From Magnetococcales bacterium (lineage in GTDB: Bacteria > Pseudomonadota > Magnetococcia > Magnetococcales > UBA8363), in contig JADFZF010000006.1 of the NCBI GenBank assembly GCA_015232645.1, forward strand, positions 1 to 40,897: a stretch of 40,897 bases of DNA. The letters run 5' to 3'. The translations under genes were made by a program, and so were the position numbers. The notes under the pieces are model-generated. The model was not told the DNA's origin and did no database searches. It was given only the letters and a program-made list of their open reading frames with translations. Shown in pieces: positions 13,832 through 40,897 of the stretch (positions are counted from its first letter, which is position 1; the number at the start of each line of letters is the position of its first letter).

Positions 13832-15235
13832 ATGAACAAACGTGTTGCCTTGATTTATTCCCCCTCCGGGATGGGGCCCTACGATGGCGAAATTCAGGCC
13901 TATCACGATAATTTCGGCGTCCTGCCTTCCCTGAGCCTGGGTTATGTGGCCGCCGTCCTGGAACGGGAAGGGTGGGAATGCCGGTATTTCGATATCATCG
14001 CCCATGGCTACAATGCCATATCACTGGCCGATGCGGTGCGAACATTCGATCCCGCCTTCTCCTGTTATACGGTCTACACCTACCATTTCCACGAAAACAG
14101 ACATTGGATTCGCTTGGTTCGCGAGGCGACCGGCAAACCGACTCTGGTCGGAGGCATTCATACCGGTATCTACCCCCAGGAAACCTTCTCCTATCCCGAA
14201 CTCGATTTTGGCCTGATCGGCGAAGCGGAAGTCAACCTTCCGGCCTTCCTGCAGGCCTTTGAAAACCAAGACGGCTGGAAGGATGTCCCCGGTTTGATCT
14301 GGCGCGATCACGGCGAAATTCGCGTCAATCCCTGGGGGGGGCTGGTGAATGACGTCGATTCCTCTCCCCGACCGGCGCGTCACCTGTGGCCCATCGAAAA
14401 ATACTTTACCATCTCTTCCTCACGACGCAATTTCACCCCGATGATCACCAGCCGCGGCTGCCCTTACAAATGCATCTTTTGCGAACAGGGTAATCTCACC
14501 TTCCGCCCTCACAGCCCCGAATACGTGGTCGACGAAATCGAAGAATGCATCAACCGCTTCGGGGTCCGTGAAATCGACATGTTCGATTCCCAGATGACGG
14601 TGAAAAAATCCCGCATGTTCGCCATTTGTGAACTCATCCAAAAACGTGGCCTGCGCTTTCACTGGTCAGCCCGGTCACGGGTCGATACCGTCGACCTGGA
14701 AGTCCTTAAGGAAATGAAGGCAGCGGGATGCTATCGCATCTTTTTCGGCATCGAATCGGGCGATGAGCAAATTTTGAAAAACTTGAAAAAGAAAACCAGT
14801 ATCGACCGGATCCGTCGCACCATGAAAAATTGCCGAGAGGCGGGTATTCAAACCTTGGGGTTCTTCATGGTGGGTAGCCCGGGTGAAACCATCCAAACCG
14901 CTGAAAGGACCCTGGCCCTGGCCCTGGAACTGGAATTGGACTATGCGCAGTTCAACGGAGTACGTGCCATTCCCGGAACGGAGCTGTATGATATGGTGTT
15001 GCCGGAACAGGGGGAAGATTTTTGGCGACAATACATTCTGGATGGCAGCAAATCGGATTTTGTTGCCCGGGCCCAGTGTTCTTTGACCCAGGAGGAAATC
15101 AATGCTTTCCTGAAGAAATGTTATCGTAAGTTCTACTACCGCCCCAGCTATATCCTTGGCCGGCTGCAAAAAATCAAAACATGGGAAGAGTTCATGAAAC
15201 ACGCAAAAGCGGGCATCGATCTCCTGATCAAATGA
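13832..15235 (+). CDS. B12-binding-domain-type radical SAM protein
   Basis: N-terminal Rossmann-like region, GGIHTGIYPQE, SRGCPYKCIFCEQ, FGIESGDEQILKNLKK. SD-like gaggctcctc upstream. Confidence 0.92.
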   Translation: MNKRVALIYSPSGMGPYDGEIQAYHDNFGVLPSLSLGYVAAVLEREGWECRYFDIIAHGYNAISLADAVRTFDPAFSCYTVYTYHFHENRHWIRLVREATGKPTLVGGIHTGIYPQETFSYPELDFGLIGEAEVNLPAFLQAFENQDGWKDVPGLIWRDHGEIRVNPWGGLVNDVDSSPRPARHLWPIEKYFTISSSRRNFTPMITSRGCPYKCIFCEQGNLTFRPHSPEYVVDEIEECINRFGVREIDMFDSQMTVKKSRMFAICELIQKRGLRFHWSARSRVDTVDLEVLKEMKAAGCYRIFFGIESGDEQILKNLKKKTSIDRIRRTMKNCREAGIQTLGFFMVGSPGETIQTAERTLALALELELDYAQFNGVRAIPGTELYDMVLPEQGEDFWRQYILDGSKSDFVARAQCSLTQEEINAFLKKCYRKFYYRPSYILGRLQKIKTWEEFMKHAKAGIDLLIK

Positions 15236-34900: not shown

Positions 34901-35047
34901 CTTTCCGTATTCCCGTTCAAGAAACAGGAATGCGTAAATGCTGGATAATATACCCACGAACAGGATAAATGGAATCGTGGCCCGTCGAGCCCGAGGAGAA
35001 TAGAACTGGGTTTCGAACCATGACCTTGTCTTTGGCAGAGATTCCAT
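31988..35047 (-). CDS. Membrane sensor histidine kinase with CHASE-type sensor and multiple PAS domains
   Basis: N-terminal TM, CHASE-like periplasmic region (FRASEYVDAVEFHYFVEPLLRHHGYPLKYFAWIPVR), second TM, three PAS regions, H-box ILHNIGNAMMSL, ATPase motifs NLVKNSCEAI, DNGIGM, GTGFGLHSV. Confidence 0.93.
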   Translation of the reverse strand: MESLPKTRSWFETQFYSPRARRATIPFILFVGILSSIYAFLFLEREYGKEQENVFSRISYTASSTFMNHAQQLDTSILSIAGFFRASEYVDAVEFHYFVEPLLRHHGYPLKYFAWIPVRSDPSDNSKSSRPDLPPMATSHPADYVPAYVEPATALVDLKDQNWRTHPVLNPLLVLARKENKMVFSGCLTRAMNNKDKCRSIVVFPIFDRRAIPSHTNALMPPQTGFIAAGLDLSTWMWEMMSPEVKEKLDFDLIDDTDPVRTMLLFRSKDRWRTTAPGLKVGFFPHSNSSQQTLRQSITLGLNHWQLITRTAPGRPLSHSFLPVFVLLTGLTVTALLTVYLYGMARLFRRLAKEKAFSERLFDVGLSGKLVVDRNLRITLCNTILAPLLGRMETGIVGRSLCEIEALANLEGLEERCVRAMDKGSEEFMSQVAWMPSGQGDGTFFDIYATPIYDGMGLRTGCLIVFHNVSDHVRMNRQLRLDKDMTRQYLDMADTIIIVLDAKGDIQFINQKGLGILGYDLPDLMGKNLIDHMLPEHWRSDMKKSQDRILERKYNKSYSVHTQVYTKSGALRTISWKIGLLAKDGENGSGLLCVGEDVTLQVRTEDRLRRSEARFRMMASTAQDAIIEVNKDCTIQFWNTAAEKMFGYPDQEALGRNLHQLVAPAPMVAHANAAFVNFFQNKKTSEPGRIIQLTARNKTGEEFPVELSISLMDHRGSDHRVVGIVRDITERKRAEEQHRFASFQAGVAEMSVSILHNIGNAMMSLIGRSDDIIRHGKELERLADLFARVRPMVDEQTSKGMDPDSLLRRLVAVADEMSGELKTVATQGLKTNALHLRDAAEHVREIIRIQQESSHYTLREKFVLKDLIDDCRVILLDLLTRDQIQLTYRSGLGVNEVVLPRGQMLQMMINLVKNSCEAITDPRHDLSQPGRIDILSRYVDSSWLEIIVEDNGIGMDEQAKNNIFASGYSSKDRGTGFGLHSVANFVQHLGGRITGSSDGPGLGARFVVSLPIMPKSYEN

Positions 35048-35066
35048 TGGGGCTTAGACCTTCCTA

Positions 35067-35972
35067 TCAGCCCGAATCCTTGTCGATAACCCGCAGGCGC
35101 TTTCGCAACCCATCGAGATCATTGACAACCAACAATACCGAGTGGACCGTGCCATAGGCACTTGTGAGTACCGAACCCGATACCAGTACATCCTTATCCA
35201 CTCCTCCAGGGCCTTGCATGACCCAGTAAAGATATTTCTGTTTTTCATTATAGTCGATCACGGCCTCAAAGAACGGACCGAGATCTTCCCTGGGAAACAG
35301 CCGATCCACTGGGGTATTCAATAGTTCATCGACCCGGCCTCCGGTCATACGCACGGCGTTATGGTTCAAAAACAATATGTCGTGATCGGGACGGCACAGG
35401 ATGACCCCTTCATTGAAAGAGCTGATGATATCCAACAAATAGGCACTGTTGAGATCCAGGGCATCGATGCGTTGACGTAAAATGTGCTGCTCTTCCCGCT
35501 CTTTATCCTTATTGTCCCAGGCGATACAGGCATTGCGGGCGTGTTGTAATATTTCATCGTGGGTGACCGGTTTCCGGACGTATAATACGTCATGTTGCAA
35601 CATCTGCTGAATTTCATCCACGGAACGGTCGGAAAATGCGGTAACAATGACAATGGTGATCCGGTCATCCAGGGCCCGCATTTTTTTGGCGGTCTCCAGG
35701 CCGTCGATGCCAGGGGGCATGCGCATATCGACAAATGCCAGAGCATAGGGCCTGCCTTCGATGATCGAACGCCGCACCTGCTCCACGGCATCTTCACCCT
35801 GATCGATCAGGTCCACGGCGAATACCGGTGGCTGTGGCTCCGTGGGCGTGGGGGCTTGGACAAACTCCTCCAACATTGATCGTTGCTTGGGGGCGCTGGG
35901 TTGCAACAAATGCTTGTAGAGCGTCAACAGATTATGGTCATCATCAACGACGAGAATCCTGTTGTTAATCAT
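35067..35972 (-). CDS. Response regulator with receiver and PAS domains
   Basis: RILVVDDDHNLLTLYKHLL, LAFVDMRMPPGIDGLETAKKM, IVIVTAFSD, YVRKPV; C-terminal PAS-like FNEGVILCRPDHDILFLNHNAVRMTGG. Start set at Met 35972. Confidence 0.9.
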   Translation of the reverse strand: MINNRILVVDDDHNLLTLYKHLLQPSAPKQRSMLEEFVQAPTPTEPQPPVFAVDLIDQGEDAVEQVRRSIIEGRPYALAFVDMRMPPGIDGLETAKKMRALDDRITIVIVTAFSDRSVDEIQQMLQHDVLYVRKPVTHDEILQHARNACIAWDNKDKEREEQHILRQRIDALDLNSAYLLDIISSFNEGVILCRPDHDILFLNHNAVRMTGGRVDELLNTPVDRLFPREDLGPFFEAVIDYNEKQKYLYWVMQGPGGVDKDVLVSGSVLTSAYGTVHSVLLVVNDLDGLRKRLRVIDKDSG

Positions 35973-36033
35973 GCGCAACCCCAAAAAATGAGTTAGCAGA
36001 ATTTGGATCGGACCAGGATCCGCAGGCCCCGCT

Positions 36034-37360
36034 TCAAGGACGTTCGGTCTGCTTCGACAGCACATCGATTCGACCCAGGACATATCTCAAGGCATCATTC
36101 GGCAAGGGTTCTTTTTCCAAGGTCCGGCGGTAACTTGCCAAAGCGTCAGCGATCATGCCCAGTCGATCCTGGGCCAAGGCCTGCCCCAGCAACCACGCAC
36201 TCCGATCCGGGTGACGGATCAACAATTTTTTGTACAGTGCCAAGGCACGGTGGTGGGCGCCACGGCGATGTTCCAAAGCCGCGAGCGTGGTCAGGTAGTC
36301 ATCCTGTTCACGTATTGCAGGACCGACTTGGGTCAGCCAGGTGTCGGCACGAAAAATATCGCCCAAAGCCAGGGCATCCCGCGCTTGTGACAAAGCCTGA
36401 AGGTCACGGGAACGCTGTTGCCCCGCCGATTCGGACAACTGCGGGGTGGCCATCGGCGATGCAACGACAGTTTCGGCCACGGCGGGAGATGCAGATTGGG
36501 CTCCAGGCTTGACTGGAGCTGCTTTATCAGGGGCGCGGTTGATTCTCTTTTCCATACGCTTCACATCCGCCATCTCGGTGGGCGGGGGGGGCGGGATCGT
36601 CCGTGGGCTGCGGGACGGCGACCGACGGGGGGGACGCTTGCCCCTGGGCCGATGCGGTATTGTGGATTGAAGCTGGTTGTTTGGCATGCCCACTGCCCGA
36701 TTTGGCTTTGCCGGCGTTGGGGCGGTGATCGTTGGTCTCTGGAGGCAGAAGAAAGTCCAGTCTCTTATCCAGTGCCAGCCCATTGCCCGTCTGAGGTACC
36801 GTGGCGTCGGAAAACCCCGAGGTCGGCAAGGCCGGGGTTTGAGGCTTCGACGATGCTCCGCTCTCCTGAGGTATCCGCCGCGTTTCCATGACCGCTGGAA
36901 CTTGCGGCGACGACTGGCTGGGGTCACCTGCCCCCGACAACGGGGGGCCGGCCGGTGGCTGACTGGCCGGGTCCGTCTCTCCCTTGACCGCCGGGATCGA
37001 TGCGGGCCATGACGGCTCCGGTTTCGACAAAGCCGCGGTTGAACTGGAAATCAGAGAGGCCAGAATGGGGAATCGCGCCGATAACGGTTCCAAAAATCCA
37101 GAGACCTTGAGCCACAATGCCTGACCTTGCAAAACCGCCCCCCCTCCGATCAGCAGCACGAGCAAGGTGACTCGGAGCCGGGTTTGTCGGCGCTTTTCCT
37201 GGGCCATCCGCGCGTTCAGCATTGCCGACTCGCGTTGAAAATCGATCTCGGCGTGATCCGGAGGCTGCGCGACTGCATCCGCGAATGCCGGCATGCTTTC
37301 CTGCGAAGTCGTGCCCCCGCGGGCATCCAATTTTCGCAGCGATGACAGGATGGTGCTCAC
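36034..37360 (-). pseudogene. MshN/GspB-like pilus biogenesis protein with TPR C-terminus, split by an apparent one-base frameshift
   Basis: ORFs 36527..37360 (MSTILSSLRKLDA, one TM, Pro-rich linker) and 36034..36927 (TPR-like helical repeats) join in frame if one C of the C8 tract (plus-strand G8 at 36584-36591) is removed. Confidence 0.75.
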
Positions 37361-37367
37361 GTTTTCC

Positions 37368-38135
37368 TCACTGTCCCATGATCTTATTTAATATTGCCAA
37401 TGGATTGGCCGGCTTCTTCGCCGCCTCGAGTTTTTCATTCAGGTCCGATGGTATCTTGTATTCCGCCTGGGACGGTTGCGCTTCCTCCACCGTTAGATCC
37501 GTATCCCAAACTTCATGCAAGGCTTCAACCCGGTTGCCAAAGGCAAAACGAACCGTTGGCTGTTGTCCGGCCGTCGTTCCTGGAATTGATTTCATCTGGA
37601 AATATTGAAAATTCCGACCTCCGTACACCTTGGATTCGGTGAGCGCTTGAAAAAAATCCAACACATCGGAACTGACCAGGGTTCGCCCGACAATCACAAC
37701 GTCTCGACCGCCATCGCGAAGCTGAATCTGGGTCAGCCACAGCTTGGTATACGGCCGACGGGCCAGATCGGCAAAATAACTGGAAAAACCTTCGCGATTG
37801 CCGACGCGATGTCCCGAAAGCAGCTCCAACACCAATTTCTTTACCTTGATATCTTTTTCCAATTGTTCCTGTTGCCGGATCTGGGCTGGATCGGGTGCGG
37901 CGAATTGTTGGCTTTCTTCAAATTTTTTCATCACCTCGTGGAGGGTCTGTCGTTGTCGCTCCAACCCCGACTGCTCATAAGACACCATGAATTTTTGCAC
38001 GAACACGCCCAGGGAGGCCAGGAAGAGGACTGAAAACAAGGCCAGATAGATGAAAAATGCCTTGCTGGCGTCCAACCAGTCGTGGGAGGTCGGAAAGGAT
38101 TCCGAATCGTAGAGGTTGACACGGGGTCTGATCAT
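37368..38135 (-). CDS. MSHA biogenesis protein MshJ / PilN-PilO-like
   Basis: Short N-terminus, one TM (FFIYLALFSVLFLASLGVFV), coiled coil, LWLTQIQLRDGGRDVVIVGRTLVSSDVLDFFQAL; sits between mshI and the mshN-like gene. Confidence 0.75.
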   Translation of the reverse strand: MIRPRVNLYDSESFPTSHDWLDASKAFFIYLALFSVLFLASLGVFVQKFMVSYEQSGLERQRQTLHEVMKKFEESQQFAAPDPAQIRQQEQLEKDIKVKKLVLELLSGHRVGNREGFSSYFADLARRPYTKLWLTQIQLRDGGRDVVIVGRTLVSSDVLDFFQALTESKVYGGRNFQYFQMKSIPGTTAGQQPTVRFAFGNRVEALHEVWDTDLTVEEAQPSQAEYKIPSDLNEKLEAAKKPANPLAILNKIMGQ

Positions 38136-39088
38136 TCCGTGGCCTCAACACTACGCAACGCGGCTCCCAATGCCGGCAAGCCACGAATGAAGGTCACCGG
38201 ATCGCCAGGTGGAGCGGTTTGAAACAAAAAATCCAGATGCAACGTTTTCAGGCGGACGTTCAAATGGGTGGCCAGGGAATCGCGCAGGAGTTGGTCAACT
38301 TCGGGAACGGCGATCAGATAGAGAATTTCCACCGGTTGATTAAAAAAATTGGATTCGGCGTAATTCAGGGAGCGTTGCACATCAGAGGCCAGAGTCCGAC
38401 CGGGATCGATACCCAGTTCCATGGCATCCTTGCTCATGACGGCGATCCGACGGGCCAGATACAACAGTCCACCACGACACACCAGCAGGCATCCCCAATC
38501 GCCAACCGGTGGAAAATACAACAAGGCCAATCCTTTGCCACTCTCAGGGAGAAAAGCGGCAATATTGTTCAACGCCAATTCCGTCACTTCTACCGCCTTG
38601 AGCTCCAGGCGGGTCGGTCGGATGACATCAAGATACTTTTGCACATCGGATTTGCGCGCCGCCGCAACGTAAACCTTGCGCGAGGCGGCCACCCGGATGG
38701 TATCGGGAATGAAGAAACAGTCGACCAGAGCCTCTTCCACCGAAAAATCCAAACGATCGCGCACGGCCCATTTCATGGCCTGCGCCAGTTCCGACAGGGG
38801 GACGTCCGCGGCATCGTTGGGAAACAGGGAGTAGCTTTCCATATCCAAACAATATACATACGGAACCCTAAGGGCCTGATGGTTTTTTGCCAGTTCCACG
38901 AGGACCAGGGACCGGCCAACCTCCTCCTTCCAGGGGACGTGCTGAAACACCTCCACTCGGGGGGTATCCCCGGTCATGCCACGCGTCAAGGCCATGGAGA
39001 TGCCCGAATCGTCCCAGGTCAATCCCGCCTGGACATCGAGGGATCCTTGTTTGTTGAAAAATTTCTTGATAATCGCCTGTATGTCCAT
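38132..39088 (-). CDS. mshI: MSHA biogenesis protein MshI (PilM-like)
   Basis: ALVDCFFIPDTIRVAASRKVYVAAARKSDVQKYLDVIRPTRLELKAVEVTELALNNIAAFL, GLALLYFPP. Overlaps the next gene by 4 bp. Confidence 0.8.
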   Translation of the reverse strand: MDIQAIIKKFFNKQGSLDVQAGLTWDDSGISMALTRGMTGDTPRVEVFQHVPWKEEVGRSLVLVELAKNHQALRVPYVYCLDMESYSLFPNDAADVPLSELAQAMKWAVRDRLDFSVEEALVDCFFIPDTIRVAASRKVYVAAARKSDVQKYLDVIRPTRLELKAVEVTELALNNIAAFLPESGKGLALLYFPPVGDWGCLLVCRGGLLYLARRIAVMSKDAMELGIDPGRTLASDVQRSLNYAESNFFNQPVEILYLIAVPEVDQLLRDSLATHLNVRLKTLHLDFLFQTAPPGDPVTFIRGLPALGAALRSVEATE

Positions 39089-39100
39089 CCTGACGACACC

Positions 39101-40318
39101 TTATTTAGCCATTTTGGCCATATCCCACAACGGCAGAAAGACCCCCATGGCCAAGATGGAGATCATGACCCCCATGATGACGGTAATCAATGGCTCGATG
39201 GCGCTGCTCAATGCCTTGACGTCGTATTCCACCTCGCGTTCGTAAAACGCGGCGATGTCATCCATCATCTGGTCCATGTTTCCGGTTTCTTCGCCTACTG
39301 CCATCATTTGAATGACCAGGGGGGGAAACAACTGCGTCGCATAAGCGGCTTGTACCAGACTTTCGCCGCGTTCGATACTGATCATCATGTCCCATATTTT
39401 TTTTCCCACATAACGGTTGTCCACGGCATGGGCGACCGATTCCAAAACCCCAAGAATGGGGACTCCTGATTTGGAAGACATAGCAAAGGAGCGGGAAAAT
39501 CGGGCCAGAGTTCCCCTTTTGATGATATCTCCGACGATGGGAAGCTTGAATTTCATGTGGTCCCACCAGAGTTTGCCATCCGGTTTGCTGATATAGGACA
39601 GAAAACCGGAGACTCCCGCCGCCATGGCGATGAGGATCAAATACCAATAATCCAGGGTAAACCGGGAGGTCGCCATAAGTAGTTTGGTTTGCCAGGGGAG
39701 TTCCAGTTTGAATGACTGAAAAAAACCAAAAAAATTGGGTAACACGAAATAGGCCATGATGAACAAGGCTCCGAACATCCCTGACAAGACGAATGCCGGA
39801 TATCGCAAGGCCGATTTGATTTGTTTTCGGGTGGCACTGTCCACCTCCATGTAATGGTACAACTGCCCAAAGGCTTCATCGAGGCGTCCGGTGGATTCCC
39901 CCACCCGGACCATATTGATGAACAGGGTGCTGAAAATCTTGGGATGAGAGGCCATGGCACGGGATAAATCCTGTCCCGCTTCCAGGGCGGCTGCGATTTG
40001 ACTCAGGGCTTTTTGCAGCATGACGTTACGCGAGCCACCCATGACCCCGTGGATGGCTCGGACCATGGGAATTCCGGCTCGCACGAGCGTTTGCAGTTGC
40101 CGCGACATCAAGACCAGATCGTCGGTCTTGGGGGGATTCTGCCCGAGCAGCTCTTCCAGAAGCCCCAGGCTGACCAGCGTTGATGATTCCTTGACTTCCA
40201 AGGGTTGTATGTTGCGTTTCAGGAGTTGTTCCGCCAGGTCCGAGGAGGACTCGGCGGGCATCTCACCGCTGACCTTCTTCCCATCACGATCCCGTCCGAT
40301 AAACTTGTAGATTTTCAT
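39101..40318 (-). CDS. mshG: Type II secretion F family / MSHA inner membrane protein MshG
   Basis: KIYKFIGRDRDGKKVSGEMPAESS, LVLMSRQLQTLVRAGIPMVRAI, VGESTGRLDEAF, FSRSFAMSSKSGVPILGVLE, MMAVGEETGNMDQMMDDIAAFYEREVEYDVKALSSAIEPLITVIMG. Confidence 0.93.
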   Translation of the reverse strand: MKIYKFIGRDRDGKKVSGEMPAESSSDLAEQLLKRNIQPLEVKESSTLVSLGLLEELLGQNPPKTDDLVLMSRQLQTLVRAGIPMVRAIHGVMGGSRNVMLQKALSQIAAALEAGQDLSRAMASHPKIFSTLFINMVRVGESTGRLDEAFGQLYHYMEVDSATRKQIKSALRYPAFVLSGMFGALFIMAYFVLPNFFGFFQSFKLELPWQTKLLMATSRFTLDYWYLILIAMAAGVSGFLSYISKPDGKLWWDHMKFKLPIVGDIIKRGTLARFSRSFAMSSKSGVPILGVLESVAHAVDNRYVGKKIWDMMISIERGESLVQAAYATQLFPPLVIQMMAVGEETGNMDQMMDDIAAFYEREVEYDVKALSSAIEPLITVIMGVMISILAMGVFLPLWDMAKMAK

Positions 40319-40710
40319 AAATAGTCAAGCCTTCCGCAATGATCACACGACCTGAAAGATGAAGTACGATATCCGGTTCCCGCTCTTGCCTCAACTGCCA
40401 TGGTACTTCGGAATTCAATAAAAACGCAGTCCTGCCGGATCATGGCCAGACCATTGGCTGCAATGACAGATCGAGTCGTCATGGCCCACGTGCCTTTCCA
40501 CCCCACAAAGTGAAAGGTTAAGCAAATTTTGGCATGGCCAACAGGAAAAATTGTCATCATTCGGATTCCCCCCCAGATGATGGAACCGCTCACGAAAAAA
40601 ATGGCGGGGGAGGCCTCCATGGTTGTGTTTTACATCCCCAACAGAGGAGCGGAGGCCAATGCCCACAGACTTCTGACCTGGTAACCGATCAAAACCTTGA
40701 AAAGCAACCT

Positions 40711-40729
40711 GAGGGGACTTCGTCCCCTC
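40711..40729. terminator. Short perfect hairpin in the intergenic tail
   Basis: gaggggac-ttc-gtcccctc, 8-bp arms. No T-tract directly adjacent. Confidence 0.4.
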
Positions 40730-40897
40730 AAGCCTTTGTGAAAAACATGCAAACAAAGTCATTCAGCAAAAGCAAAATCCTGGGAACAATTCTCCGGCCT
40801 CCCTACTTCTACCTTGTCATATTCATTAATTGGAATGGATCGCTGATTATTGATTGATCTATGAAAATAGTGAAAGAAAAAAGGGGTCTGGGGGATT

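Follow-up and report, generated by a model that had tools for sequence, protein, structure and literature searches.

Is a pilus-cluster gene that is broken by a one-base shift at a homopolymer a reversible switch, a recoding site, a pair of separate genes or an ordinary indel? This question is raised by a locus on the minus strand of the window, the whole stretch of DNA that was analysed (40,897 nucleotides), which is one whole contig of a Magnetococcales-like MAG of an uncultured bacterium (3.39 Mb, 426 contigs, 74% complete). The named genomes closest to it are MAGs of Magnetococcales. The N-terminal frame (36527-37360) begins with a GTG at 37360 and encodes a transmembrane segment, a Pro/Ala-rich linker and, after a run of eight cytosines, an out-of-frame tail that ends at a stop codon at 36527-36529, giving 277 aa with the C-terminal end ...HRDGGCEAYGKENQPRP. 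A second minus-strand frame (36034-36591) reads ...IPPPPPTEMADVKRMEKRINRAP..., carries the linker end, leads into a weak match to TPR and has its stop at 36034. The run, which is G8 on the plus strand at 36584-36591 and C8 on the minus strand, is located inside the overlap of both frames and is the probable place of the shift. The overlap extends over 36527-36929, and in principle any point in it could be the site of the shift.

The orthologue was found as one uninterrupted frame of 401-406 codons in three congeneric MAGs (G001, G005 and G003), where G001 and G005 are 81% identical to each other and G003 is 37% identical to G001. The gene order mshG-pilM-pilN-TPR-response regulator is common to the three congeners, with the orthologue located between the PilN-like and response-regulator genes. 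A profile of the three orthologues matches the window gene twice, in one frame over profile positions 2-251 and in the other over 193-400; the N-terminal frame is homologous to the intact orthologues as far as the linker and the C-terminal part is 51-55% identical to them. Because the relatives align with the first frame N-terminally and with the second frame C-terminally, sequence comparison confirms that a single gene is divided between the ORF 36527-37360 and the TPR-bearing frame (36591 to 36034). The initial annotation had described a membrane-anchored, MshN-related TPR gene broken by a one-base shift, and this description is borne out, with the shift at or beside the homopolymer. It had also named the alternative that the relatives all encode two proteins; they encode one, and the one-gene claim therefore holds. 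No further complete orthologue was found among the 48 genomes of the order that were searched, the copy in G004 being cut by a contig end, and no independent assembly of the same species was found in a contig scan, which matched the three congeners only.

In the assembled form, translation would end about 18 codons past the C8 run, and the TPR domain would either be missing or have no membrane anchor. It is very improbable that the locus is a stable split into two separate proteins, the second starting from an ATG just after the run. In-frame ATGs at 36573 and 36555 do follow immediately 3' of the run, but no good Shine-Dalgarno sequence precedes either of them, the TPR part would be deprived of its anchor and the split form was observed in no relative.

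The position of the frame change was estimated with a codon-usage model built on 26 window genes. The model places 96% of the probability at 36527-36591, with the peak at 36579-36580 just 3' of the run, 16% on the C8 run itself and 4% on 36592-36626, and so locates the change to within a few tens of bases. A C7 at 36627-36633 was rejected as the switch point, with a codon-usage probability of 0.02%. By this model, the frame change is likely to lie at C8 or a few bases 3' of it. The point just 3' of the run is preferred over the run by a modest margin, which, as far as the model goes, speaks slightly against slippage at C8; if slippage is the cause, the run would be the natural place of the shift.

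The same stretch bears on programmed +1 frameshifting or transcriptional slippage at the C run, which would yield a short and a full-length product and had been listed as an option in the initial annotation. The frame before the run is GCC CCC CCC GCC, so that a CCC-C slip to the +1 frame would be possible. However, the relatives read in one frame, with no shift site kept together with a stimulator, and the first-frame stop is located about 54 bases from the slip site rather than at it. No significant recoding signal was observed in three stretches downstream of the run, where z values of -1.5, +0.6 and +2.2 give no stable stimulating structure. Recoding is left without support and we regard it as the least probable reading of the locus.

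We then considered the C8 run itself. When synonymous codons of the N-terminal frame were resampled with the peptide fixed, a G/C run of at least 8 arose with P about 0.26, and G/C runs of at least 7 were slightly in excess (P 0.03). The run is not beyond chance and is expected from the Pro/Ala-rich peptide and the codon usage, being neither longer nor rarer than composition predicts. The G8/C8 8-mer has 626 matches in this genome and 472-1006 in each congener. A comparison of tract length across related strains had been proposed earlier, and it revealed a run that is conserved neither in position nor in length: in the orthologue, G001 carries C8, C7, C7 and G8, G005 carries C7, C7 and C10, and G003 has no run over 6, with all of these runs in frame and elsewhere in the gene. 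The C10 of G005 (L063:842-2044, minus strand) is found in the linker at a different place from the window C8 and is a candidate for run-length variation. A count over 440 kb of this genome gave 42 G/C runs of at least 8, 22 of which, besides C8, sit within open coding frames; the rest are mostly near gene ends, intergenic or at contig ends, and no other clear gene break was seen. The window itself has an intact G8 at 14334-14341. General homopolymer breakage of the assembly was likewise not seen in an orthologue comparison that was limited to about 40 kb of coding DNA. Two further runs, C9 at 557-565 and C8 at 605-612, are separated by 40 bp in sequence that shows no coding signal, at the left end of the contig. 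In addition, a possible second frameshift or gene split was noticed at about 6676-6684 of contig C1 (L098), where matches to one long G005 ORF switch frame with no nearby homopolymer.

The surroundings of the split gene are those of a pilus cluster, and all of the following genes are on the minus strand. Directly upstream is a PilN-like gene (37368-38135, 74% identical in G001 and G005), preceded by a PilM-like gene (38132-39088) and a gene for an mshG/pilC/gspF-like inner membrane protein (39101-40318). A response regulator with a PAS domain (35067-35972) lies directly downstream here and in the relatives. No Rfam features were found in 35000-40897. In the relatives mshE is located directly upstream of mshG, and here 560 bp of other sequence and a repeat (40318-40897) precede mshG. 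The sole close mshE match in the genome is a fragment (C332:18461-19498; residues 3-350 of 631, 92% identical) that runs into a contig end; the displacement of mshE is due either to rearrangement or to faulty assembly. At its right end (40804-40897) the contig holds the start of an interspersed repeat that occurs at about 40 places in the genome, with 76-98% identity over at most 94 bp. Its copies are often found at contig ends, in the longer ones a GGGGGATTGCCCCC hairpin and other palindromes follow, and two inverted copies lie about 240 bp apart in L179. The repeat looks like a small non-coding element.

The protein consists of one transmembrane segment predicted from hydropathy (residues 64-82, VTLLVLLIGGGAVLQGQAL; 37115-37171, minus strand), the Pro/Ala-rich linker and a C-terminal TPR-like domain, which includes a TPR_16-like stretch (36115-36264, minus strand) with an E-value of 0.00056 that does not reach the Pfam cut-off. 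Anchor, linker and C-terminal TPR part are the traits of MshN, the TPR matches being weak, but the position is not: mshN proper is located between mshM and mshE in the relatives and the gene described here follows pilN. Two intact mshN-like genes were found elsewhere in this genome, on contigs C177 (L107:1379-3612) and C332 (L115:9117-10451). One of them lies behind an mshM-like gene and the other before the mshE fragment, and the congeners show a single mshM-mshN-mshE order. Of the earlier label of an MshN-like pilus gene, the relationship to MshN and the pilus cluster are retained; by its position and by the two other mshN-like genes, the protein is a paralogue of MshN and not MshN itself.

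These observations bear directly on phase variation, in which slipped-strand mispairing at C8 would reversibly switch the TPR protein and, with it, pilus function. Such a switch would present itself, as seen here, in a G/C run of 8 with the gene one base out of frame, and G-run switches in Bifidobacterium pilus genes provide a precedent (PMC9187656), although the runs there are G10-G11. Against it stand a run that is not conserved in place or length and is expected from composition, and the genome-wide abundance of such 8-mers, most of which do no harm. Furthermore, MSHA pili in V. cholerae were reduced by deletion of mshA, mshE or mshL but not by that of mshN or mshM (PMC4624765). By analogy, loss of the pilus would not be expected from a true OFF state, the window protein being only a paralogue of MshN, and intact mshN-like genes are present elsewhere in the genome. 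The phase switch of an adhesive pilus that had been suggested earlier is not supported, given such a tract, the 22 others in intact frames and the paralogue status of the protein. We consider phase variation at this run unlikely, and it is quite unlikely that the C8 allele is the OFF state of a pilus-cluster accessory TPR protein under reversible slippage control.

The age of the break can be approached through the C-terminal half, which in this genome keeps the conserved columns and has no stop codons. A relative-rate test against G003 gave 18 versus 11 changes in this half (chi2 1.69), which is not significant and, with 29 informative sites, has little power. From the conservation, the absence of stops and the lack of significant acceleration, we infer that the break arose recently or that the organism does not have it at all. 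An old pseudogene was rejected on the absence of stops and of significant acceleration, the latter by a weak test.

The reading we favour, with good confidence, is a one-base slippage indel without sign of selection for switching. The membrane-anchored TPR gene at the end of the mshG-pilM-pilN cluster would have received a one-base indel at or next to the linker C8 by ordinary slippage at the run, technical or biological. This is favoured because the three congeners have one frame at the same place, codon usage points to a change within the run or immediately 3' of it, such a run is predicted by composition and is not conserved in position, and the break appears recent or absent from the organism. 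An amplification, sequencing or assembly error in the MAG is quite possibly the source. The MAGs of the relatives were obtained from Illumina reads with metaSPAdes assembly, and one such study, which names the relative HA3dbin1, amplified the DNA before sequencing and used the assembler-only option with no read correction; the preparation of this MAG was possibly different. The error reading is weakened by the 22 other G/C runs of at least 8 in open frames, at which the assembly is otherwise good. A real, recent and unselected frameshift in the sampled cells is somewhat less likely, though still a possible source. Among the options listed initially (indel error, null mutation, phase variation and recoding), which were the right ones, the evidence favours the ordinary ones.

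As found, the locus matters little beyond a warning that a lone homopolymer frameshift in a MAG should not be taken for phase variation. Were reads to reveal a true mixture of lengths, it would represent a slippage switch of a pilus-associated protein in uncultured environmental bacteria; no slippage switch was found described in this bacterial group in a limited literature search.

As in an isolated homopolymer indel of a draft MAG, a single one-base shift sits at or beside a homopolymer and relatives carry the gene intact. The fault is not systematic, as the other G/C runs of 8 in this assembly are in frame. The protein resembles V. cholerae MshN (VC0404) in its N-terminal membrane anchor, low-complexity linker, C-terminal TPR part and msh-type cluster, and a profile comparison with MshN of the genus gave 98% probability over the TPR part; it differs in following pilN, in being only 26-29% identical and in the presence of two separate mshN-like genes. 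With the switch of the sortase-dependent pili of Bifidobacterium breve it shares a G/C homopolymer in a gene of a pilus cluster, with the assembled sequence out of frame. The B. breve runs (G10-G11), however, recur from strain to strain, and their variation has been demonstrated (PMC9187656), whereas the window locus has a C8 that is not conserved and belongs to a different kind of pilus.
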